The notes under the pieces: generated by a model
What the model saw: the letters and a program-made list of their open reading frames with translations, nothing else
Told to the model about the DNA's origin: nothing
The model's database searches: none
Shown: positions 13,214 through 47,147 of the stretch, one piece after another
Position numbering within the stretch: the first letter of the stretch is position 1
How the letters are laid out: every line of letters starts with the position of its first letter
Translations under genes and position numbers: made by a program
Virus record (IMG/VR): IMGVR_UViG_3300042691_023936
Span: 22,314 to 86,313 of that record
From: a virus
Reading direction: 5' to 3' (one strand)
DNA: 64,000 nucleotides

Positions 13214-13999
13214 ATGAAAGTTTTTCATGAATTACCTTTAAGTATGCTTTATAAAGCATATTCTATTACAGATGGGGATTATTGTTTACCACATTTATTA
13301 GATAAGTATGAAATATATAAAAACTATTTTTTACAATCTAAACGTGACAAACGTTTTATAATTATGGATAATGGTTTATTTGAAGGTGTAATTCATACAA
13401 ATAAAGATTTAATTGAAAAAATTAATTTAATTAAACCTAATATTTTTATTACGCCGGATGAATGGAATGATTCTTCTGCTACTTATAAAAATGCTAAGTA
13501 TTGGATGAATACTTTTAAAACACAATTACCACCAGAAACTAATTTAATGGTAGTATTACAGGGTAAAACATTAGATGACTTTATTAATTTATATAATAAT
13601 TGTATTGATTTAGGTTTTAAACATTTTGCTTTTAATCATTCATCTGAAGTATATCAGACCCTATTTTCTCACCCAAATAAACTAATAAATCAGATGATGG
13701 GTAGAATTAAATTAGTTACTTTATTTAAAAAGCAAGGTTATATTTTAGATAGCCACTACATACATCTCTTAGGATGTAGTTTACCACAGGAATTTATTTA
13801 TTATAAAGGATTAGACCACATTAATTCAGTAGATACATCTTCACCTATTATAAATGGTGCTTTAGGTATTACATATAAAGAGTATGGTTTATTAACTAAA
13901 CCATTAAATAAGATTGAAGAATTTTTTGAAGATAGTTTAAAAGACCAAATAGAAGATATTATATTCAATATAAATAAATTTAAAGAATATTCATATTAA
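13214..13999 (+). CDS. dpdA: DpdA-like DNA transglycosylase (TGT fold)
   Basis: A 261-residue protein resembling the phage DpdA branch of tRNA-guanine transglycosylases, which swap guanine in DNA for a 7-deazaguanine. The strand FIIMDNGLFEG near residues 47-57 matches the DpdA substrate-binding Asp region. KPNIFITPDEW, LMVVLQGK and FKHFAFNHSS follow the barrel-strand order of the family, and HLLGCSLPQEF matches the HxLG segment. It is shorter than full DpdA. Genes for making preQ0 lie within the next 6 kb, strongly supporting the call. It has its own boxed promoter. Confidence 0.72.
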   Translation: MKVFHELPLSMLYKAYSITDGDYCLPHLLDKYEIYKNYFLQSKRDKRFIIMDNGLFEGVIHTNKDLIEKINLIKPNIFITPDEWNDSSATYKNAKYWMNTFKTQLPPETNLMVVLQGKTLDDFINLYNNCIDLGFKHFAFNHSSEVYQTLFSHPNKLINQMMGRIKLVTLFKKQGYILDSHYIHLLGCSLPQEFIYYKGLDHINSVDTSSPIINGALGITYKEYGLLTKPLNKIEEFFEDSLKDQIEDIIFNINKFKEYSY

Positions 14000-14253
14000 T
14001 GAAAGATTTAATTATAAAATATTTTAAAGGTCAACCATTAAATATAAATGAATGTGTTAGTTTAATGGAAGCTTATATGATTAAAACAAAAAAAACGGAT
14101 TCAACTATTATACAAAAAATAATAGATCCTATGAATCCTTTTGGTCAAGGAATGCTACAACAAGCCGTAAATACATCTGTTATTTTATTGGCAGAAGAAT
14201 ATAATATAATAAAATTATATTCAAAAGAAGGACAATTATTGATGGTATATTAA
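13999..14253 (+). CDS. Hypothetical protein, 84 aa
   Basis: A small soluble protein overlapping the dpdA-like gene by one base (taATG), so probably translated with it. It is mostly helical by composition, with a hydrophobic C-terminal end (IIKLYSKEGQLLMVY). No motif is recognised. The coupling makes a role in DNA modification possible but unproven. Confidence 0.6.
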   Translation: MKDLIIKYFKGQPLNINECVSLMEAYMIKTKKTDSTIIQKIIDPMNPFGQGMLQQAVNTSVILLAEEYNIIKLYSKEGQLLMVY

Positions 14254-14272
14254 AAATAAAATGCTCCTTTCA

Positions 14273-14280
14273 TATATTTA
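14273..14280 (+). promoter_or_regulatory. Bare TATATTTA promoter element
   Basis: CATATATTTATTGAT, nearly the same as the element before the homing endonuclease at 9573, lies 8 bases before the membrane protein start at 14288. Confidence 0.45.
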
Positions 14281-14287
14281 TTGATAT

Positions 14288-14659
14288 ATGATATCTTTAA
14301 TTTTAGTAATACTTGCTGCTATTTTCAATTCTATAATGGACGTTGTATCTTTAAAATATGAAAAAAGCAGATTTATTAATTACCCTAGTTTACGTTATTT
14401 TATAGATCCTGAAATTTCATGGAAAAATAAATATAAAAACAATAATCCAAAGCGAGGAGAAAAATTTTTTGGTTCAAGTACCTTTTTAGTATGGACAACA
14501 GATTTATGGCATCTAGCTAAAACTTTAATGTTGGTTTGTTTCTCAATAGCTATTATTACTTATATACCAATTATTTATCCAATTGTAGATGCTATAATAT
14601 ATTGGATATTATTTGGAGTTGTATTTGAATTATTTTGGAGTAAAATTTTTATAAAATAA
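14288..14659 (+). CDS. Small membrane protein, 123 aa
   Basis: Hydrophobic segments at about 2-18 and 78-118 (TLMLVCFSIAIITYIPIIY, AIIYWILFGVVFELF) flank a charged loop rich in Lys and Asn, giving probably three membrane passes. The family is not recognised. Its bare promoter element suggests expression with fibre and lysis genes; an inner-membrane role such as superinfection exclusion is only a guess. It ends just before a terminator. Confidence 0.6.
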   Translation: MISLILVILAAIFNSIMDVVSLKYEKSRFINYPSLRYFIDPEISWKNKYKNNNPKRGEKFFGSSTFLVWTTDLWHLAKTLMLVCFSIAIITYIPIIYPIVDAIIYWILFGVVFELFWSKIFIK

Positions 14660-14668
14660 AATTTAGTA

Positions 14669-14694
14669 GGTTTGGTAGTCCAAACCTTTTTTTT
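14669..14694 (+). terminator. Intrinsic terminator inside a promoter
   Basis: GGTTTGG (14669-14675) pairs with CCAAACC (14680-14686) across the loop TAGT, followed by eight T residues. The stem contains the TTTGG and GTC boxes of the promoter whose TATCTTTA ends at 14701. Confidence 0.8.
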
Positions 14695-14701
14695 ATCTTT
14701 A
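14671..14701 (+). promoter_or_regulatory. Boxed promoter overlapping a terminator
   Basis: TTTGG (14671), GTC (14678) and TATCTTTA (14694-14701), with the GTC-to-TAT distance of 16. The same hairpin-plus-promoter design occurs before PolB and the phosphoesterase at 58542. Confidence 0.7.
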
Positions 14702-14720
14702 CATCCTAATAAAATAAGTT

Positions 14721-14963
14721 ATGTTACAAGAAAATTTTATGTCACTTTATGATTATCTAGGTAAAGCAGCTGGAACCAGTCTAGGTAAAAAAGTATCTGA
14801 TGTTGCTAAAGAACAAAACCAACCTTACCAATTTAGAGAAGTATCAAATTTAAAATATAAGGGTAAAGTTCTTCTTTACACTAAATCATTTTTAGATTCT
14901 TATTTTAACAAACCTACAACAAATCATAGTGATACTTTACAAGACGATAATTTACCCTTCTAA
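14721..14963 (+). CDS. Small protein with SSB-type C-terminal tail
   Basis: An 80-residue basic protein ending DDNLPF, almost the conserved acidic tip of bacterial SSB (DDDLPF-like), which recruits primase, RecO, RecQ and other repair proteins. There is no OB fold; the body is Lys/Gln-rich with one strand pair (YKGKVLLYTKSFLDSY). It might recruit or block host SSB-tail binding proteins. A second in-frame ATG at 14739 could be the true start. It has its own boxed promoter. Confidence 0.6.
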   Translation: MLQENFMSLYDYLGKAAGTSLGKKVSDVAKEQNQPYQFREVSNLKYKGKVLLYTKSFLDSYFNKPTTNHSDTLQDDNLPF

Positions 14964-15006
14964 TAAAATAATCTAAAATTAAAAAATAATTAATTACATT
15001 AAAGTT

Positions 15007-15942
15007 ATGGATAAAAATAAAAAATACGCGGTAATCGCATTATCAGGAGGAATGGATTCAAGTACATTATTAATTAAACTCCTATCAGAAAACTATCAAG
15101 TAGTTGCACTCTCTTTTGATTATGGACAAAAACACAAAGTTGAATTAGAACGTGCTACTGAATTAGTAGAGTATATTAATAATAGGTCTGGTCAAATAAT
15201 TGGAGATGAAGCACAATTAATATATCCTCCAGTTACTCATCAAATCATTAAATTAGATGGTTTATCACAGTTGTTAGTAAGTGGATTAGTAGATAATGAC
15301 TCTATGGAAATGAAAACTGGACATTATGCTCATGAAAATGCTTTAACAACAGTGGTTCCAAATCGTAATGCTATATTTTCTTCAATCATATATGCCGTCG
15401 CCTTATCTATAGTGAAAAGAACAGGAAATCACTGTAATATTTCTTTAGGTACACATATGGGTGATTTTGATAATAAAAAACAAAGTGGAATTTATCCTGA
15501 TTGTTCTGAAGAATTTAAGCAAGCTATTGAATATGCTTTCAAAATAGGAAATTGGGATTCTGATAAAGTAGACTATTATGCTCCTTACAATATAACTGAT
15601 AAAACAGGAGTATTAAAAGATGGAATAGAATGCTGTGAAAAATTAGGTCTAGACTATAAAGAAATTTACAAACGTACCAACACTAGTTATGCTCCAATAT
15701 ATGTCGCTCCTAAAGACAAAGTAGAAGACGGTCTTCTTCTTATAGAAACTAAAGGTAGATGGTATTCTGATTACAAATCAGGTGCTAGTATTGAACGAAT
15801 TATTAGTTTTATTATTCTAGGTTTGGAAGATCCAATTCAATATGCTGAAGAAGATGGAACATTAGTGTCTTGGGATTTTGTAAAAAACTATGCTATTAAA
15901 ATAGAAGAAGAATTTACTGGAGAAAAATTCGATTTTCAATAA
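15007..15942 (+). CDS. queC: QueC-like 7-cyano-7-deazaguanine synthase
   Basis: A 311-residue PP-loop ATPase that converts carboxydeazaguanine to preQ0. The ATP loop SGGMDS is at 13-18, followed by LSFDYGQKH (35-43) and VVPNRNAIF (116-124). It is longer than usual QueC (about 230 residues) because of an insertion around 60-105 and a C-terminal extension. The four zinc Cys of QueC are all missing: the TCY equivalent is TSY (225-228 region) and the CGxCxxC equivalent is DYKSGAS (255-261), although the following IER is kept. It is still expected to act in the pathway because the active-site loop is intact. Confidence 0.85.
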   Translation: MDKNKKYAVIALSGGMDSSTLLIKLLSENYQVVALSFDYGQKHKVELERATELVEYINNRSGQIIGDEAQLIYPPVTHQIIKLDGLSQLLVSGLVDNDSMEMKTGHYAHENALTTVVPNRNAIFSSIIYAVALSIVKRTGNHCNISLGTHMGDFDNKKQSGIYPDCSEEFKQAIEYAFKIGNWDSDKVDYYAPYNITDKTGVLKDGIECCEKLGLDYKEIYKRTNTSYAPIYVAPKDKVEDGLLLIETKGRWYSDYKSGASIERIISFIILGLEDPIQYAEEDGTLVSWDFVKNYAIKIEEEFTGEKFDFQ

Positions 15943-15959
15943 AAAAAGATTTAAAAAAT

Positions 15960-16052
15960 ATGTTAAAAAAAGATATTCTTAAAAAATACAACATCAAAGA
16001 TTATTCAACTCTAAATAAAATACTGTCAAATCATTTGGAAGGTCAAGACTAA
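15960..16052 (+). CDS. Possible 30-aa peptide
   Basis: A 30-residue Lys-rich reading frame after queC, starting MLKKDILKKYNIKD. Its last codons overlap the TTTGG and GTCAA boxes of the next promoter, so the end is constrained by another signal. It may be real, but there is little support beyond an AT-rich start region. Confidence 0.3.
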   Translation: MLKKDILKKYNIKDYSTLNKILSNHLEGQD

Positions 16053-16065
16053 AATCTTATATTTA
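16034..16065 (+). promoter_or_regulatory. Boxed promoter before 16082 gene
   Basis: TTTGG (16034), GTCAA (16042) and TATATTTA (16058-16065) show the full consensus with 24- and 16-base spacing. It probably drives the small DNA-binding protein gene. Confidence 0.75.
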
Positions 16066-16081
16066 AATAAATAAATAAGTT

Positions 16082-16282
16082 ATGGATAGATTAAACAAAA
16101 ACGAAAAGCTAGCATTTTACAATGCTCGCAAACGCAATGGAGATGTTAAAAGATTAGCAGAAACCACAGAATTTACAACACGTTTTATTAACTATGTTAT
16201 GCGTGGTGAAAGAAATGTAAATGATACATTAGCAAACGCTATGTATAACATTTCTCGTAGACGTCAAATGGCTAATGCCTAA
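16082..16282 (+). CDS. Small helix-turn-helix-like protein
   Basis: A 66-residue basic protein (many Arg, Lys and Asn). Residues about 18-48 (GDVKRLAETTEFTTRFINYV) look like the recognition helices of a small HTH fold, followed by an Arg-rich tail. It is monocistronic, between a boxed promoter and a strong terminator, so it is probably made in quantity. A transcription regulator or nucleoid-type protein is inferred. Confidence 0.6.
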   Translation: MDRLNKNEKLAFYNARKRNGDVKRLAETTEFTTRFINYVMRGERNVNDTLANAMYNISRRRQMANA

Positions 16283-16292
16283 GTATTAACAT

Positions 16293-16324
16293 ACACCTCC
16301 TTCATTTTGAGGGAGGTGTTTTTT
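16293..16324 (+). terminator. Strong intrinsic terminator
   Basis: ACACCTCC pairs with GGAGGTGT and the stem continues inward through TTCA/TGAG to about 12 bp with a short T loop, followed by six T residues. It separates the HTH-like gene from queD. Confidence 0.9.
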
Positions 16325-16344
16325 ATTTAATTGTATAAAGAATT

Positions 16345-16869
16345 ATGAGAAAATATCAATCAACAAAAGTATTCGATGGTTTTAGTTGTATATTCCGTCA
16401 ATGGAAAGCAGAAGGAACGCATTGTAGATTCTTACATGGGTATGGAATATCATTTAAAGTGACATTTGAAGGTGAATTGGACGAACGTAACTGGGTTTGG
16501 GATTTTGGAGGTATGAAACGTGCTAAAGGTACTATTGACGGAATGAATCCTAAAGCCTGGATGGATGATATGTTTGATCACACTACTATTATAGCAGAAG
16601 ATGATCCACATTTAGGAAATTTTATAAAGATGTGGAAAGATGGTATCATCCAACTTCGTATTATACCAGCAACAGGAGCAGAGCAATTTGCTAAATATAT
16701 CTACGAAAAATTAAATACATTTGTTCAAGAAGAAACTAACGGACGTGTAAAAGTAGTACGAGTTAAATTTATGGAAAATAATAAAAACAGCTCAGTATAT
16801 TACGAAGATAACTCTAAAATAAATAATACAAATCAAACAATTAATCACGAACAACATTACGGTTGTTAA
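16345..16869 (+). CDS. queD: QueD 6-carboxytetrahydropterin synthase
   Basis: A 174-residue QueD/PTPS-fold enzyme making carboxytetrahydropterin from dihydroneopterin triphosphate, the second step to preQ0. The catalytic Cys27 (GTHCRFLHGYG), the MFDHTTII segment with His79, and Glu113 (ATGAEQFAKYI) are present. The usual HGH zinc pair reads HGY (31-33) and the usual first His (SAAH) is replaced in FSCIFRQW. The last about 25 residues extend past the family and end NHEQHYGC, encoded by a 45-bp repeat that also ends the gene at 17110. Confidence 0.85.
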   Translation: MRKYQSTKVFDGFSCIFRQWKAEGTHCRFLHGYGISFKVTFEGELDERNWVWDFGGMKRAKGTIDGMNPKAWMDDMFDHTTIIAEDDPHLGNFIKMWKDGIIQLRIIPATGAEQFAKYIYEKLNTFVQEETNGRVKVVRVKFMENNKNSSVYYEDNSKINNTNQTINHEQHYGC

Positions 16870-16879
16870 TAAAAAAATT
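16835..16879 (+). repeat. 45-bp direct repeat, copy 1
   Basis: Identical over 45 bases to 17306-17350. It encodes the last residues of QueD (TINHEQHYGC), the stop codon and the A-rich leader of the next gene. The repeat unit is 471 bp and carries two small genes. Confidence 0.95.
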
Positions 16880-17113
16880 ATGGCCGATTTTAGTAAACAA
16901 TGGTGTGAACAAAATGATTTTGGTATGCCCGGAGATTTTGATATTTTAAAAGAAGCAGATGCCTTACAATCTAATTCATATGTTTCTATGATATGTGAAG
17001 GATATGGATTTAATGCAATTGGTAAAGATATTGAAAATAACATAATGTTAGCTTTTCATAATTGGCAAGACGGTACTACAAAATGGGTACCATATAATCA
17101 AATAGTAAAATGA
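16880..17113 (+). CDS. Hypothetical protein, 77 aa
   Basis: A small acidic soluble protein immediately after the first copy of the 45-bp repeat; its ATG directly abuts the repeat. Trp- and Asn-rich segments (FHNWQDGTTKWVPYNQIVK) resemble a small beta domain. It overlaps the next gene by 4 bases (ATGA). Part of a two-gene module flanked by direct repeats inside the deazaguanine region. Function unknown. Confidence 0.6.
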   Translation: MADFSKQWCEQNDFGMPGDFDILKEADALQSNSYVSMICEGYGFNAIGKDIENNIMLAFHNWQDGTTKWVPYNQIVK

Positions 17114-17340
17114 AAGGAATACTTAAAAATACAAAAGCGGGTTGGTTCGTATTGTATCAAGTAATGAGAGATGAACTAACATCAGGTTATGATTCTATTC
17201 CATTACATCCTGATAGTCAAACTTGGATGGATGGATATAATCTATATGAAGGTAAAGAAGTAGAATTTGAAGTAAGGGTTTATCCAAGTGGTTCTCGTTA
17301 CGCTAAAACAATTAATCACGAACAACATTACGGTTGTTAA
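17110..17340 (+). CDS. Hypothetical protein ending NHEQHYGC
   Basis: A 76-residue protein whose final residues KTINHEQHYGC are encoded by copy 2 of the 45-bp repeat and equal the QueD C-terminus. The body (WFVLYQVMRDELTSGYDSIP, YEGKEVEFEVRVYP) looks like a small beta fold. The shared tail suggests either a C-terminus swapped by recombination or a common tag. Translational coupling with the preceding gene (ATGA). Confidence 0.6.
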   Translation: MKGILKNTKAGWFVLYQVMRDELTSGYDSIPLHPDSQTWMDGYNLYEGKEVEFEVRVYPSGSRYAKTINHEQHYGC

Positions 17341-17350
17341 TAAAAAAATT
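17306..17350 (+). repeat. 45-bp direct repeat, copy 2
   Basis: Perfect second copy of 16835-16879, again covering the 3' end of a gene, its stop and the following A-run. The copies diverge immediately outside. Confidence 0.95.
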
Positions 17351-17378
17351 TATTATATATTTAAGTAAATAAAAAGTT

Positions 17379-17684
17379 ATGAACAAGATTAAAATAAAAA
17401 AATATATAGAGTATATCCAAAGTGATAATCCAATAACTTGGAAAGATATTAAAGATTTTCAGTTTGAGGATGATGATATAATAGGTATCGGATATGAGGA
17501 AGGACATTATAGTGAAAGTAATTCGTGGGGTGGGTATTACTATTATTGCGTCGAACGAATGGTTGAAGAAACTGACGAAGAATATGAGGATAGAATGGAA
17601 AGAAAACGTTCTACCGAATCAATATTAAAAAAGAATAGATACGAACAATATCTTAAACTAAAAAAAGAATTCGAAATCGAATAA
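17379..17684 (+). CDS. Hypothetical acidic protein, 101 aa
   Basis: A charged protein with a Tyr/Gly-rich centre (SNSWGGYYYYCVERM) and a long Glu/Arg/Lys C-terminal helix, probably coiled coil. TATATTTA at 17356-17363 could serve as its promoter. No family is recognised. It ends 15 bases before queE. Confidence 0.6.
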   Translation: MNKIKIKKYIEYIQSDNPITWKDIKDFQFEDDDIIGIGYEEGHYSESNSWGGYYYYCVERMVEETDEEYEDRMERKRSTESILKKNRYEQYLKLKKEFEIE

Positions 17685-17699
17685 AATAAATAAAAAGTT

Positions 17700-18533
17700 A
17701 TGAGTAAAATAGACCCAAATAAATTATTAATCTCCTCAGATTTTTACAGCATTCAAGGGGAGGGTATATCAACAGGAGTACCATCATATTTCGTAAGATT
17801 AGGAATATGTAATTTAACCTGCGGTATGTCTCGTAAGTTTGCAAATCAATTAGCAAAAGATAAATCATTAGAAGATGGAGAGATATTCAAAGGTGATTTA
17901 GAGCTAGAAGGTAAAGCAACTTGGACTTGCGATTCAACATCACAATGGTTATGGAGAGGTGAAGATAAAGACTTCCAATACCTAATTGATAGATGGAAAG
18001 AGCAAGGTATCTATGAAGATATATTAAATGGTACTATCCACATTATTTGGACTGGTGGTGAACCTACTATTAAACAACATCAGGAAGCTATTGCTAATTT
18101 CCATGAATATTGGAGTGAGCAAGATGCACCTATATTTAATTCTTATAGTGAAATTGAAACAAATGGTACTATAGTAATTGAAGATGATTTGTTTAGTATT
18201 ATTAATCAAATTAACTGCTCACCAAAACTATCTAACTCAGGTATGACTGAGAAACAACGTATTAATCCAGATGCTATTAAACGTATTATGGAACATTCCA
18301 ATTACCAATTTAAATTTGTTATTTCAACGGAAGAAGATGTACAGGAATTATTTAGAGACTTTATAGAACCCTTCAATATACCTCTTAAAAACGTAGTGTG
18401 TATGCCTGGTTTAGATGATGCTGCTAACTTTGAAGAGCGTACTCAATTTGTATTGGAGATGGCTAAGAAATATAAGTTCCGTGGATTGACTCGTTTGCAT
18501 ATTGCAGCTTGGAATAAAACATTAAACGTATAA
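17700..18533 (+). CDS. queE: QueE radical SAM enzyme (CDG synthase)
   Basis: A 277-residue QueE-type radical SAM enzyme, converting carboxytetrahydropterin to carboxydeazaguanine. FYSIQGEG (15-22) and TGGEPT (118-123) are diagnostic. The iron-sulphur cysteines are Cys37 and Cys41 (CNLTC) and Cys77 (WTCDS), giving CX3CX35C: the usual CX3CX2C loop carries a long charged insert of about 33 residues. WTCD aligns with the family's WCDT. The remainder (CSPKLSNSG, FVISTEEDV) is QueE-like. Confidence 0.88.
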   Translation: MSKIDPNKLLISSDFYSIQGEGISTGVPSYFVRLGICNLTCGMSRKFANQLAKDKSLEDGEIFKGDLELEGKATWTCDSTSQWLWRGEDKDFQYLIDRWKEQGIYEDILNGTIHIIWTGGEPTIKQHQEAIANFHEYWSEQDAPIFNSYSEIETNGTIVIEDDLFSIINQINCSPKLSNSGMTEKQRINPDAIKRIMEHSNYQFKFVISTEEDVQELFRDFIEPFNIPLKNVVCMPGLDDAANFEERTQFVLEMAKKYKFRGLTRLHIAAWNKTLNV

Positions 18534-18536
18534 GTT

Positions 18537-18674
18537 ATGAAAATAAAAATTAAGCATAACGATACTTTAATTGAGATTGAAGAAGAAGGTAATCGATTTG
18601 TCTATCCAAATAGCGATGCTATTATGAGAATAATAAAAGAGACTATTGCCGAAATTATAAAACTAAAACAATAA
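18537..18674 (+). CDS. Hypothetical small protein, 45 aa
   Basis: A short frame right after queE, starting MKIKIKHNDTLIEIEEE and ending in a Lys/Ile helix. Spacing of 3 bases upstream and 4 bases downstream, and a natural A-rich start, support it as a real small gene. Function unknown. Confidence 0.5.
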   Translation: MKIKIKHNDTLIEIEEEGNRFVYPNSDAIMRIIKETIAEIIKLKQ

Positions 18675-18678
18675 AATA

Positions 18679-19137
18679 ATGCAAGAACTAAACAATTACT
18701 TAAATGTATTTCAAATCATCATTGATGATTTAGTAGAATTATCACCATCAGCGAAAAATGTTAGATTAGGTGGTTCGTTAATCCTTAAATTACATGGATT
18801 AAATTTTTCAAGATCAATAGGTGATCTAGATATTGTACTTACTAACCCAACAGAAAAACAAAAGGATTATTTAAAAGCTCTTCGATTTTTTGATTGCGAA
18901 AATGATGGAGCATATTTAAATGAAACAAACTATAAATTCAAAAAGAATGGATATATTTTGAATATATTAGTTGTTGATCCATATACATTACCTATCCCAT
19001 CTACTTTCTATAGTCACAATAATAAGTACTATGGTATTGTATCTATTAACGAAATTATAGATGCTAAAAAACGATATAAACGTACTAAAGATATTAGCGA
19101 CTTTTTATTATTAAAAAATGAAAATTTTAACATGTAA
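18679..19137 (+). CDS. Nucleotidyltransferase-fold protein
   Basis: A 152-residue protein with the nucleotidyltransferase pattern: RLGGSLILKLHG (Gly-Gly-Ser) then SIGDLDIVL (Asp-x-Asp) near residues 52-57. This matches MNT/AbiEii-like enzymes, which transfer nucleotides to protein or RNA. It overlaps the HPRT start codon by one base. A role in modifying tRNA or protein, or as an antitoxin-like remnant, cannot be told apart here; no partner toxin is seen. Confidence 0.6.
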   Translation: MQELNNYLNVFQIIIDDLVELSPSAKNVRLGGSLILKLHGLNFSRSIGDLDIVLTNPTEKQKDYLKALRFFDCENDGAYLNETNYKFKKNGYILNILVVDPYTLPIPSTFYSHNNKYYGIVSINEIIDAKKRYKRTKDISDFLLLKNENFNM

Positions 19138-19652
19138 TGAAAATATTATATAACCAAGTACAAATTCAAGCTGCTGTAAATAAAGTAGCAGCGGAGATCT
19201 ATAGAAAACATTATAACGATCCTAGCCCACCAGTAATGATCTGTGTGTTAAATGGAGCGTTTATGTTCTTTACTGACTTAGTAAAACATATAAACATAGA
19301 TTGTGAAATAGATTTTATTCAAGCTAAATCATACCAAGGCCAAGAACAATTTACAGTTAATATTACTAAAGATATCACTACTGATATTACAGGAAAAAAT
19401 GTATATGTGATAGATGATATTTTAGACTCAGGTAACACATTAACTAAATTAATAGATCACTTAGGAAAATACCATAAACCTCGTTCTATTACTCCTGTAG
19501 TACTATTCAAAAAACACACAAGTCAGTGGCCTGTATTACATGGTATAGAATTAACGGATGAAGCTTGGCTATGTGGTTATGGATTAGATGGTGAAAAAGG
19601 ACTTTATAGAAATCGTTCTGTAATATTTGGAAAGTCAGAAGAAATAGATTAA
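19137..19652 (+). CDS. hpt: Hypoxanthine phosphoribosyltransferase
   Basis: A 171-residue type I phosphoribosyltransferase. The PRPP loop VYVIDDILDSGNTL (about residues 87-100) and the flexible-loop segment ending in SYQGQ fit the HPRT family, which salvages hypoxanthine or guanine to IMP/GMP. It lies between the nucleotidyltransferase-like gene and folE. It may feed GTP to the deazaguanine route, or salvage bases from degraded host DNA. Confidence 0.85.
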   Translation: MKILYNQVQIQAAVNKVAAEIYRKHYNDPSPPVMICVLNGAFMFFTDLVKHINIDCEIDFIQAKSYQGQEQFTVNITKDITTDITGKNVYVIDDILDSGNTLTKLIDHLGKYHKPRSITPVVLFKKHTSQWPVLHGIELTDEAWLCGYGLDGEKGLYRNRSVIFGKSEEID

Positions 19653-19661
19653 ATTTAAAGT

Positions 19662-20297
19662 ATGGAAAAAATAAAAAAATCGAATGGTAATTTACCTCGT
19701 ACATCTGAGGAAATTGAAAATATGATAACAGAAGCTACTATTCATTATGGTAAGTTCTTAGAAGCCTTAGGTTTTGATTATCAAGCTGATCCTCAAACAA
19801 TTGATACTCCTAAAAGGGTCTCAAAAGCTTGGTTAAAAGACTTAATTATAGGGTCAGTATCTAACGAACCTAATATTACTACCTTTCCTAATGAAGATAA
19901 CTATGATGGTTTAGTAGTACAAGGTGGTATTCCCGTTACATCAATGTGTGCTCACCATAATTTAGCATTTACAGGTTATGCTACAGTAGCATATTTACCT
20001 GGTAAACAAGTAGTAGGTTTAAGTAAATTAAATCGTATTGTAGAATGGTTTTCTCGTAGACCGCAAATGCAAGAATCATTAACTCAACAAATCCATGATT
20101 ATATAGCAAACAAATTAGATTGTCATTCGGTAGCTGTAAGTATCGCTTGTAAACATACTTGTTGCTCACATAGAGGAATTAAACATCCATCTGTAATGAC
20201 TACTAATAAGTTCTCAGGAGCCTTTATGGAAAAAGATAATTTAATTCGCGAAGAATTCCTCCACGCTATAGAAAAAAACGGAACTACATTAAAATAG
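19662..20297 (+). CDS. folE: GTP cyclohydrolase I
   Basis: A 211-residue FolE, making dihydroneopterin triphosphate from GTP, the first step to preQ0. Zinc ligands are visible in SMCAHHNL (Cys, His) and KHTCCSHRG (Cys). VGLSKLNRIVEWFSRRPQMQE is near the family signature and the length is typical. With QueD, QueE, QueC and the DpdA-like enzyme it completes the route. It starts 9 bases after hpt. Confidence 0.93.
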   Translation: MEKIKKSNGNLPRTSEEIENMITEATIHYGKFLEALGFDYQADPQTIDTPKRVSKAWLKDLIIGSVSNEPNITTFPNEDNYDGLVVQGGIPVTSMCAHHNLAFTGYATVAYLPGKQVVGLSKLNRIVEWFSRRPQMQESLTQQIHDYIANKLDCHSVAVSIACKHTCCSHRGIKHPSVMTTNKFSGAFMEKDNLIREEFLHAIEKNGTTLK

Positions 20298-20493: not shown

Positions 20494-20997
20494 ATGCTTA
20501 ATTCATCTCAAATTATAGACGAAGGTCTATTAAAATTAGAACACACTAAAGGAAAGCCAAGTCAAGTTGGTTATGATCTTTCAATTAAATCAGTACAACA
20601 AGTAGTATCTAATACTAAAATGGGATTTATCTTAAAAGATAAAACTATATTAGCCCATTACGAACCTCTACAACCTACTAAGTTAGACGGTTATAATGGT
20701 TGGATATTATATCCAGGAGTATACGATATTACTTTTCATGAAGGATGCAAAATACCAGCAGATCGTACGGCTTTCATTAAACAACGCTCATCGTTGTATC
20801 GTAATGGTGCAATAATTAACAGCCCAGTATTTGATCCGGGATTCGAAACACAACACATGGGTAGTTTAATGTATGTACATGAAACTGTATTTATTGAACA
20901 AGATGCGCGTGTAGCTCAAATATATTTCCACCCATCTACAACAACCGATAATTTATATAGCGGTCAATTTCAGTTTGACTCACAGCGTAGCCGCTAA
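20494..20997 (+). CDS. dCTP deaminase / dUTPase-family protein
   Basis: A 167-residue trimeric dUTPase-fold protein. KQRSSLYRNGAIINSPVFDPGF is the conserved dCTP deaminase region (Arg-Ser-Ser, then Asp-Pro-Gly-Phe), and the C-terminus is Gln/Ser/Arg-rich (GQFQFDSQRSR). It would supply dUMP/dUTP for thymidylate or keep dUTP low. The catalytic Glu cannot be fixed with certainty, so dUTPase is an alternative. A terminator follows. Confidence 0.75.
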   Translation: MLNSSQIIDEGLLKLEHTKGKPSQVGYDLSIKSVQQVVSNTKMGFILKDKTILAHYEPLQPTKLDGYNGWILYPGVYDITFHEGCKIPADRTAFIKQRSSLYRNGAIINSPVFDPGFETQHMGSLMYVHETVFIEQDARVAQIYFHPSTTTDNLYSGQFQFDSQRSR

Positions 20998-25415: not shown

Positions 25416-25820
25416 ATGAAAATTAAACCGTTACACAATCACGTTGTTATCAAACAACAAGACGAAACAGAAACAATGTATGGAAATATTATTGTTCCAG
25501 ATGCTGGTAAAGAAAAAGCATTAATGGGTGAGGTAGTGGCTGTAGGCCCTGGTCTTATAAACATGAATGGAGTATTAATTCCTAACACAGTAGAAGTAGG
25601 ACAAAAAGTATCATTCCCTGCATTTGGTGGACAAAAATTATCTATCCAAGGTGAAGATTTCCTTATTTATAAAGAGCAAGACATCTTTGCTGTTTTAGAA
25701 GGAAACTATTTACCATACAGACTTTCTCCAGAAACAATTGAGGAATTAGTTGGATTAAAAGAAACTGTTACTATCCCTAAAAACGAATATAATAAACTTA
25801 CAAACAACAAATATGAGTAA
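25416..25820 (+). CDS. groS: GroES-like co-chaperonin
   Basis: A 134-residue GroES. LHNHVVIKQQDETETMYGNIIVP is the start of the fold with its mobile loop, and GEVVAVGPG and EDFLIYKEQDIFAVL are conserved strands. It has a C-terminal extension of about 35 residues (PETIEELVGLKETVTIP) beyond normal GroES (about 97). It overlaps groEL by 8 bases. T4 uses gp31 with host GroEL; here the phage carries both partners. TATATTTA at 25391-25398 is the likely promoter. Confidence 0.9.
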   Translation: MKIKPLHNHVVIKQQDETETMYGNIIVPDAGKEKALMGEVVAVGPGLINMNGVLIPNTVEVGQKVSFPAFGGQKLSIQGEDFLIYKEQDIFAVLEGNYLPYRLSPETIEELVGLKETVTIPKNEYNKLTNNKYE

Positions 25821-32193: not shown

Positions 32194-33654
32194 ATGGAAA
32201 AAAAAGGTTATATCCCTAAGGATCAACGTAAAAAAATACTTCTTTTATGTGACGATATTAGAATGCACTCAGGTATTTCTACTATGGCTCGCGAATTAGT
32301 AGTAGGTACAGCCCATGTATTTAATTGGGTTAATATTGGAGGAGCAATCCAGCACTCTGAAGCAGGTAAACGATTAGATTTAAGTGAGGATAGTAGTAAA
32401 ATAACAGGAATTAAAGATGCTAGTGTATTTTTATATCCAACAAATGGATATGGAGATCAATCATTAGTAACTCAAATTATGAATATTGAAAAGCCGGATG
32501 CATTAATGATATTTACTGATCCTAGATATTGGGTTTGGTTATTCCAGATGGAACATGAGATTCGTATTAAAACTCCTATAATATATCTTAATATATGGGA
32601 CGACTTACCTTATCCTATGTATAATAAGTCGTTTTATGAGTCATGTGATGCTTTATTAGCTATAAGTAAACAAACAGAAAATATTAACAAAGTAGTATTA
32701 GGTGAATTAAGTAAAGACAAAGTAATTAAATATGTACCTCATGGTATAAATGAAGACCATTTCTTCCCTATCACTACAGATAAACCAGAATACCTATCAT
32801 TACAAGAATTTAAAAAACGTTTATTTAATAATAAACAGTATGATTTTACTTTATTATATAACGCTAGAAATATTCGTCGCAAATCAGTTCCAGATCTAAT
32901 GTTAGCATGGAAAATGTTTGTTGATGAATTACCAGAGGATAAAGCAAAGAAAACAGCATTTGTTTTACACACCCAAGCAATTGATGAAAACGGTACAGAT
33001 TTAATAGCTGTAAAAGAAATGTTATTTGGAAACCATGATAAATACAATATTATATTTTCAAATCAAAAATTAGAAGTTAATGGAATGAATTTATTATACA
33101 ATTCAGCAGATGCTATTGCTTTAATAAGTTCAAATGAAGGATGGGGATTATCATTAACAGAAGCAATGATGTGTGGTAAACCAATTATAGCAACTGTTAC
33201 AGGTGGTATGCAAGATCAAATGCGTTTTGAAGACGAAAATGGTGAATGGATTAAGTTTACTGAAGAATTTGGCTCAAACCATAAAGGTAAATTTAAAAAA
33301 CATGGTAAATGGGCGTTTCCTATATTCCCTAGCAATGTCAGCTTAATCGGCTCAGTTCCAACACCTTACATTTATGATGATAGAGCCCAACCAGAAGATG
33401 TAGCTACCGAAATACAAAAAATATATACTATTAAAACCAATTCTCCTGCGGAATATAATGAGATAGCTCAAGAGGCACGTAAGTGGGTGATTTCGGATGA
33501 ATCGATGATGTCTGCGCGTTTAATGTGCAAAAATTTTATTGATGGGGTTAATGAAACATTTACTAAATGGACACCAAGAGAATTATTTTCATTCACTAAA
33601 GTAGAACAATTAGATCAACCAAAACATTACGTTAAACACCCAATTTCAAAATAA
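32194..33654 (+). CDS. Glycosyltransferase, GT4-like
   Basis: A 486-residue GT-B glycosyltransferase. The N-terminal domain has LLLCDDIRMHSGISTMAREL. The C-terminal domain contains VPHGINEDHF and LISSNEGWGLSLTEAMMCGKPIIATVTGG, the EX7E-type donor site of GT4. It is probably cytoplasmic, transferring a nucleotide-activated sugar. It starts a glycan locus that runs to about 50.6 kb and is followed 10 bases later by a second GT4. Confidence 0.88.
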   Translation: MEKKGYIPKDQRKKILLLCDDIRMHSGISTMARELVVGTAHVFNWVNIGGAIQHSEAGKRLDLSEDSSKITGIKDASVFLYPTNGYGDQSLVTQIMNIEKPDALMIFTDPRYWVWLFQMEHEIRIKTPIIYLNIWDDLPYPMYNKSFYESCDALLAISKQTENINKVVLGELSKDKVIKYVPHGINEDHFFPITTDKPEYLSLQEFKKRLFNNKQYDFTLLYNARNIRRKSVPDLMLAWKMFVDELPEDKAKKTAFVLHTQAIDENGTDLIAVKEMLFGNHDKYNIIFSNQKLEVNGMNLLYNSADAIALISSNEGWGLSLTEAMMCGKPIIATVTGGMQDQMRFEDENGEWIKFTEEFGSNHKGKFKKHGKWAFPIFPSNVSLIGSVPTPYIYDDRAQPEDVATEIQKIYTIKTNSPAEYNEIAQEARKWVISDESMMSARLMCKNFIDGVNETFTKWTPRELFSFTKVEQLDQPKHYVKHPISK

Positions 33655-46656: not shown

Positions 46657-47147
46657 GAATACCAGTACACCCAGATGTAAAGATTTATAACCACGATGTC
46701 CATTATGATTTTAGAGGTGAATTATGGACATTATGGAAAGAAGGCGAATTTCCTAGAACTGATGTTAAATTCAATCATGATAAGATTTCTACCTCAAGAA
46801 AACATGTTTTAAGGGGAATCCATGGTGATTCTAAAGCATGGAAGTTAGTAGAATGTCTTTATGGTGAGCTATATTTTGTTGTTGTAGATAATAGACCTGA
46901 ATCAAAAAACTACAAGAATTGGACAGGTATGATGCTCTCAGACAAAACAAGACAATCAGTATTACTCCCCCCAGGATTTGGAAACGGATTTTTAGTAATG
47001 AGTGATCATTCAGTATTTCATTATAAATGGGCATATGAAGGAAAATACCCAGATGTTGATGAACAATTTACATTAAAATGGAATGATCCTGAATTAGATA
47101 TTGAATGGCCTATTGATAACCCAATTTTACAAAAAAGAGATAAATAA
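46653..47147 (+). CDS. rmlC: RmlC-like 3,5-epimerase
   Basis: A 164-residue cupin. KHVLRGIHGDSKAWKLV carries the RmlC catalytic His region (RGIH) and the Lys, and SVLLPPGFGNGFLVMSD is the conserved Pro-Gly loop. A Tyr proton donor may be in FHYKWAYEG. It would epimerise a 4-keto-sugar at C3 and C5, consistent with deoxysugar synthesis. It overlaps apt by one base. Confidence 0.85.
   Translation: MRIPVHPDVKIYNHDVHYDFRGELWTLWKEGEFPRTDVKFNHDKISTSRKHVLRGIHGDSKAWKLVECLYGELYFVVVDNRPESKNYKNWTGMMLSDKTRQSVLLPPGFGNGFLVMSDHSVFHYKWAYEGKYPDVDEQFTLKWNDPELDIEWPIDNPILQKRDK

Follow-up and report, generated by a model that had tools for sequence, protein, structure and literature searches.

A phosphoribosyltransferase associated with viral 7-deazaguanine cassettes and its possible role in recycling guanine released by a DpdA-like transglycosylase

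The stretch of aquatic-phage DNA analyzed here (herein the window; 64,000 nucleotides, bases 22,314 through 86,313 of the 86,313-base IMG/VR virus record IMGVR_UViG_3300042691_023936) carries a gene cassette predicted to place a 7-deazaguanine base in phage DNA. A near-identical second record spans 116,881 bases; both it and the window's own record are possibly incomplete genomes. An initial annotation had located a DpdA-like transglycosylase together with QueC, QueD, QueE, and FolE within 7 kb and had noted the lack of QueF. The open reading frames lie where it put them, the four Que/Fol genes have profile matches (Table 1), and neither QueF nor a formyltransferase was found above cut-off in the window's 86.3-kb record or the near-identical 116.9-kb record, the weak QueF matches in both reflecting the related fold of FolE. 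Inside the same interval, adjoining FolE and unmentioned by that annotation, is a gene for a hypoxanthine/guanine phosphoribosyltransferase (HPRT; PRTase for phosphoribosyltransferases in general), which we rate as the most informative part of the cassette.

Table 1. Genes of the cassette and their positions in the window
Feature	Position	Strand	Basis
DNA-guanine transglycosylase candidate, CP220/immuto type	13214..13999	+	261 aa; tblastn, AlphaFold (AF2) fold, catalytic residues
Small conserved cassette protein (YDYLGKAAG...)	14721..14963	+	Family in 52 loci, mostly between DpdA and QueC
QueC, zinc-less phage type (7-carboxy-7-deazaguanine, CDG, to 7-amido-7-deazaguanine, ADG, to 7-cyano-7-deazaguanine, preQ0)	15007..15942	+	PF06508 1.1e-30
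QueD, HGY type	16345..16869	+	PF01242 1.3e-16; phrog_2389 2e-42
QueE radical SAM enzyme	17700..18533	+	phrog_2076 4.7e-42; without Pfam match
HPRT, proposed guanine-salvage component	19137..19652	+	PF00156 7.8e-23
FolE (GTP cyclohydrolase I)	19662..20297	+	PF01227 3.4e-48; phrog_2197 1.5e-59
dCTP deaminase/dUTPase-fold protein, frequently 3' of FolE	20494..20997	+	PF22769 1.5e-13; in 22-24 loci

The order DpdA, QueC, (QueD), QueE, PRTase, FolE, often followed by a dCTP deaminase-like protein and DNA polymerase, recurs in about 100 viral loci; because gene set and order are identical there, the cassette is not a product of chance. Two DpdA-type cassettes (L097 and L099) lie on contigs assigned to Pelagibacter and Woesearchaeota genome bins; these are probably phage contigs placed there in error. 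Between QueE and HPRT the window also encodes a nucleotidyltransferase-like protein (18679 through 19137) without a convincing family match; only four close relatives have one.

Recognition of the 13214 protein as a DpdA needed structure, because no sequence library (Pfam, NCBIfam, PDB) recognized a tRNA-guanine transglycosylase (TGT) in it; it is assigned to phrog_19058, a PHROG family without an assigned function. The silence of PF01702 means little, since this profile detects no TGT in Flavobacterium phage immuto either, whose annotated “DpdA” is a homolog (34%, 2e-32; tblastn). The same searches matched a hypothetical protein of Campylobacter phages (14 records at about 31%; 31.6%, 7e-25 for gp056 of phage CP220) and, weakly, Bacillus phages. 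An AlphaFold (AF2) model built from 73 sequences has a mean pLDDT (per-residue confidence) of 95.2 and a pTM (predicted template modeling score) of 0.92. The initial annotation had made its reading depend on the protein lying within the TGT fold; the 50 best PDB matches of the model are all TGTs (best E-value 2.4e-9, query-based TM score 0.63), and viral fold matches include R9TGF0 of phage nt-1, which is the size of nt-1 DpdA2, and M4SLA5 of Cellulophaga phage phiST. Residues D52, Q116, and D207 pair with D89, Q187, and D264 of Escherichia coli Tgt and are invariant in 73/73 sequences; profile alignment of the same 73 sequences with E. coli Tgt using hhalign was weak (11% probability). The model thus supports a TGT (β/α)8 fold and membership of the TGT/DpdA superfamily, and by analogy the protein would insert 7-deazaguanine into DNA. 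On sequence kinship it probably belongs to the group named DpdA3 in the literature; Cui et al. (2023) are said to have given this name to the Campylobacter phage enzyme and tied it to complete replacement. With more than 580 relatives in IMG/VR, this family of 260-residue transglycosylases, invisible to the Pfam TGT profile, is common in aquatic phages. Hutinet et al. (2019) placed Campylobacter phages among those without DpdA; CP220 gp056 (L016, 15001 through 15777) is a homolog of the 13214 protein, annotated as hypothetical, in a phage surveyed there as DpdA-less.

The biosynthetic enzymes are unusual in their metal ligands. Measured against the canonical QueC signature (PMC13329287), cassette QueCs retain SGGxDS (81/81), YxQxHxxE (80/81), VPxRN (81/81), and YPDC (78/81), and the zinc motif C(x)8CxxCxxC is present in a single one of the 81; the other 80 have TNTSYxP, with a serine beside the retained tyrosine. 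The zinc motif is also missing in phages Iggy, R5C, RHEph04, ZHS, and immuto, and CAjan-type QueC keeps it with a longer spacer. Cassette QueDs have FRQW...HCxxLHGY in place of the H...HGH zinc ligands (HGY in 74/74, the first His replaced); in phiST, Iggy, and RHEph04, too, QueD is of the HGY type without the first zinc His. Loss of these ligands need not mean an inactive enzyme, because Iggy combines the same QueD type with an analogous zinc-less QueC, and the preQ0 deoxynucleoside (dPreQ0) has been reported in its DNA (Olsen 2023, as cited in PMC11008142 and PMC11945000). Zinc ligands can be missing from the QueC and QueD of phages with reportedly modified DNA. That a zinc-less QueC might be an enzyme stopping at ADG was considered and rejected: CP220 keeps the motif yet contains the ADG deoxynucleoside (dADG), and Iggy, without it, is reported to have dPreQ0. 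The window QueE conserves the [4Fe-4S] cysteines C37, C41, and C77, the last two of which are separated by a 35-residue spacer. Cassette QueEs fall into two types, one with this spacer and one with a 7-residue (X7) spacer, as in immuto; QueE of HVTV-1, the DNA of which reportedly contains mainly dPreQ1, has a similar long insertion at the same place.

The 19137 protein is HPRT-like by several measures: it matches TIGR01203 (8e-35; 120 bits against a curated cut-off of 150) and PDB entries for HGXPRT (7e-27), and in 18 relatives the HPRT motif DDxxD (DDILDSG in the window), the SY loop, and the catalytic Asp (D97) are invariant. A shorter type of cassette PRTase is a member of the XGPRT (gpt) family, with matches to NF006613 (1.5e-16) and to E. 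coli XGPRT in the PDB (about 5e-11). The HPRT and XGPRT types are unrelated enzyme families.

Cassette PRTases were counted by profile search near FolE. They are present in 33/44 complete cassettes, 18 of the HPRT type (usually upstream of FolE) and 15 of the shorter type; dereplication at 95% DpdA identity leaves 28/38 (16 HPRT and 12 XGPRT). PF00156 scores above cut-off in 12/16 records with this type of DpdA versus 0/15 other 7-deazaguanine phages (Fisher P = 1.6e-5), the latter being named phages with other preQ0 cassettes, since a DpdA1 scan of viral contigs yielded just three loci. In one of the 12 positive records (G006) the match lies outside the cassette, at 146825. Reciprocal scans of IMG/VR by PRTase alone, taking the nearest 80 relatives of each query and seeking 7-deazaguanine genes within 6 kb, found such genes beside 79/80 viral relatives of the HPRT and 80/80 of the XGPRT. 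On the DpdA tree the states HPRT, XGPRT, and none require at least 10 changes, which argues that the PRTase slot has been refilled repeatedly.

The association extends to cultured phages. XGPRT matches occur in 27 records of the annotated phage collection, 23 of them in five cultured lineages (immuto; phiST and kin; Brevundimonas phages MaInes and StAshley; Synechococcus phage BUCT-ZZ01; and the Pseudomonas phage PA5oct group); the other four are unannotated, and three of these are shorter than 5 kb. FolE and QueD are encoded in all five lineages (one representative of each was checked). FolE adjoins XGPRT in MaInes, BUCT-ZZ01 has the order QueE-XGPRT-x-QueD-FolE, and in PA5oct XGPRT adjoins QueE; in these three phages of other hosts no DpdA of the 13214 type was detected. 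The XGPRT-like protein of PA5oct (L306) is the hypothetical gp163, and the genome also encodes FolE and has two QueD-family matches, so this phage likely has a 7-deazaguanine pathway with guanine salvage. The HPRT type has no clear match in cultured phages of this kind. A PRTase is also found in two QueC-less relatives, of 157 and 162 kb, and in phiST; because it is kept there, the PRTase appears to go with base exchange and not with the final step of biosynthesis. The QueC-less loci L261, L278, and L125 (phiST) encode an extra small protein, possibly a QueD-like T-fold, and a P-loop kinase-like protein, which may provide an alternative last step; phiST DNA is reported to contain 2'-deoxy-7-deazaguanine.

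Each TGT-type exchange frees one guanine, and the catalytic Asp of HGPRT works through the purine N7, which 7-deazaguanines lack. We propose that FolE, QueD, QueE, and QueC would make ADG or preQ0, both 7-deazaguanine bases, from GTP, and that the 13214 transglycosylase would exchange this base for guanine in finished phage DNA, with one free guanine per swap. HPRT would then join the free guanine to phosphoribosyl pyrophosphate, yielding GMP that could refill the GTP/dGTP pool for FolE and replication; by removing the competing guanine it would also let exchange approach completion. Since the N7-acting D97 is invariant, 7-deazaguanine itself is an unlikely HPRT substrate. For near-complete replacement in a 150-kb genome of 28.5% GC, we calculate that some 43,000 guanines would be freed per copy, or roughly 7 mM from 100 copies in a 1-fl cell. 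We put the probability that the cassette modifies phage DNA in this way, with HPRT salvaging the guanine freed by DpdA, at roughly 60%.

As to the final base, the route to preQ0 and a DNA transglycosylase without QueF, as initially annotated, are supported; dPreQ0 is neither the sole nor clearly the best expectation. In CP220 and CPt10, 100% of dG is reported to be dADG (PMC8306585), and because the 13214 protein is akin to that of CP220, dADG with near-complete replacement is as plausible as dPreQ0. We give the two bases about equal weight and others less, and replacement of dG may be near complete. An anti-restriction function, known from related phages (PMC6884629), would be expected by analogy.

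Several observations weigh against a dedicated salvage enzyme. The PRTase must be dispensable, as 11/44 complete cassettes show none nearby and CP220 lacks one. The window HPRT scores below the NCBIfam equivalog cut-off. The reciprocal scans kept the nearest 80 relatives, which favors cassette members, and the control phages mostly have smaller genomes. An adenine PRTase at 47147 through 47626 (NF002636, 166 bits, above the curated cut-off) points toward purine salvage of a broader kind. In that case the cassette could make and insert 7-deazaguanine as described, and the PRTase would use guanine and hypoxanthine freed by the breakdown of host nucleic acid to raise the GTP available to FolE and to replication, without any particular tie to the guanine that DpdA frees. 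The adjacency of PRTase to FolE, which uses up GTP, suits such a supply role, and the window encodes a ribonucleotide reductase as well as the adenine PRTase; however, other 7-deazaguanine phages need GTP for FolE too and had a PRTase in 0/15 cases, and the nearest viral relatives lie almost exclusively beside this pathway, as a gene for general salvage would have no need to do. We consider general salvage unlikely, though a serious competitor.

It is quite improbable that the PRTase instead acts on the 7-deazaguanine base, leading through the nucleotide to a dNTP that is partly incorporated at replication rather than by exchange. Such a route would account for replacement being complete, and CP220, immuto, and the QueC-less relatives have kinase-like P-loop genes in the vicinity of DpdA; however, the same cassettes contain a conserved DpdA, the PRTases keep the catalytic Asp that needs the missing N7, and they accompany QueC-bearing and QueC-less cassettes alike. 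Least probable of all is that the genes boost a queuosine precursor for host tRNA and leave phage DNA unmodified, as proposed for DpdA-less phages that carry preQ0 genes (PMC6884629), given the presence in the cassette, at about 100 loci, of a protein with the TGT fold whose catalytic residues are conserved, the failure to find QueF in either record, and the fully modified DNA reported for CP220, which bears a homolog of the 13214 protein.

Guanine recycling for DpdA-type exchange may reach beyond this cassette. A dedicated guanine PRTase could be a general, previously unrecognized part of phage 7-deazaguanine pathways, recruited on at least two occasions from distinct enzyme families (HPRT and XGPRT), across five or more phage lineages, and driving near-complete replacement by recycling guanine; we regard the chances of this wider proposal as even. 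Total guanine replacement by post-replicative exchange calls for an explanation, as each freed guanine is a competitor of the base being inserted and a purine lost. Salvage by an enzyme of the cassette itself would, if true, be a simple and testable answer, and the PRTase would also be a new marker gene for such phages. The association of a guanine PRTase with 7-deazaguanine cassettes recurs across the loci surveyed and suggests the salvage role; no published link of a PRTase to phage 7-deazaguanine or transglycosylase was apparent in the titles and occurrence counts of a partial literature collection.

Other genes in the window lie outside the cassette. The adenine PRTase is away from it, near sugar-modification genes: the interval 42808 through 50630 encodes a B12-binding radical SAM enzyme, a DegT/DnrJ aminotransferase, and an FkbM methyltransferase, and a glycosyltransferase is encoded at 32194, some way upstream; the cluster has the appearance of a phage-encoded set for sugar or surface modification. 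A GroEL-type chaperonin is encoded at 25813 through 27426; immuto has GroES and GroEL near its cassette. Just 5' of DpdA, a fiber-like protein (11200 through 13146) contains many SHAEG repeats that resemble trimeric adhesin head repeats, and similar fiber-like genes occur both at related loci and within the record's first kilobases. A GIY-YIG homing endonuclease with NUMOD3 (9573 through 10199) lies directly 3' of the ribonucleotide reductase gene.

Among known systems, Escherichia phage CAjan and Pseudomonas phage Iggy (DpdA1-type, dPreQ0) resemble the window in combining FolE-QueD-QueE-QueC and a transglycosylase without QueF, and Iggy also in its HGY QueD and zinc-less QueC; they differ in their DpdA lineage, in lacking a PRTase, and in reportedly partial modification (about 32% of G in CAjan and, for phages of the Iggy type, a single GA motif). 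Cellulophaga phage phiST shares a DpdA-like fold (M4SLA5, probably gp65; TM score 0.85), an HGY QueD, FolE, and a PRTase in its genome, but has no QueC and therefore a different final base. The Firehammerviruses CP220 and CPt10 have the homologous 260-residue transglycosylase candidate and encode QueC, QueD, and QueE, whereas in CP220 the genes are dispersed, QueC keeps its zinc motif, QueD keeps its H and H.H ligands, and there is no PRTase. Immuto resembles the window in its DpdA homolog, zinc-less QueC (46%), HGY QueD (71%), and a PRTase adjoining FolE. Its PRTase is of the XGPRT type, however, and its QueE of the X7 type, and because QueF and a formyltransferase adjoin its DpdA, the base in immuto DNA is probably a preQ1 derivative.

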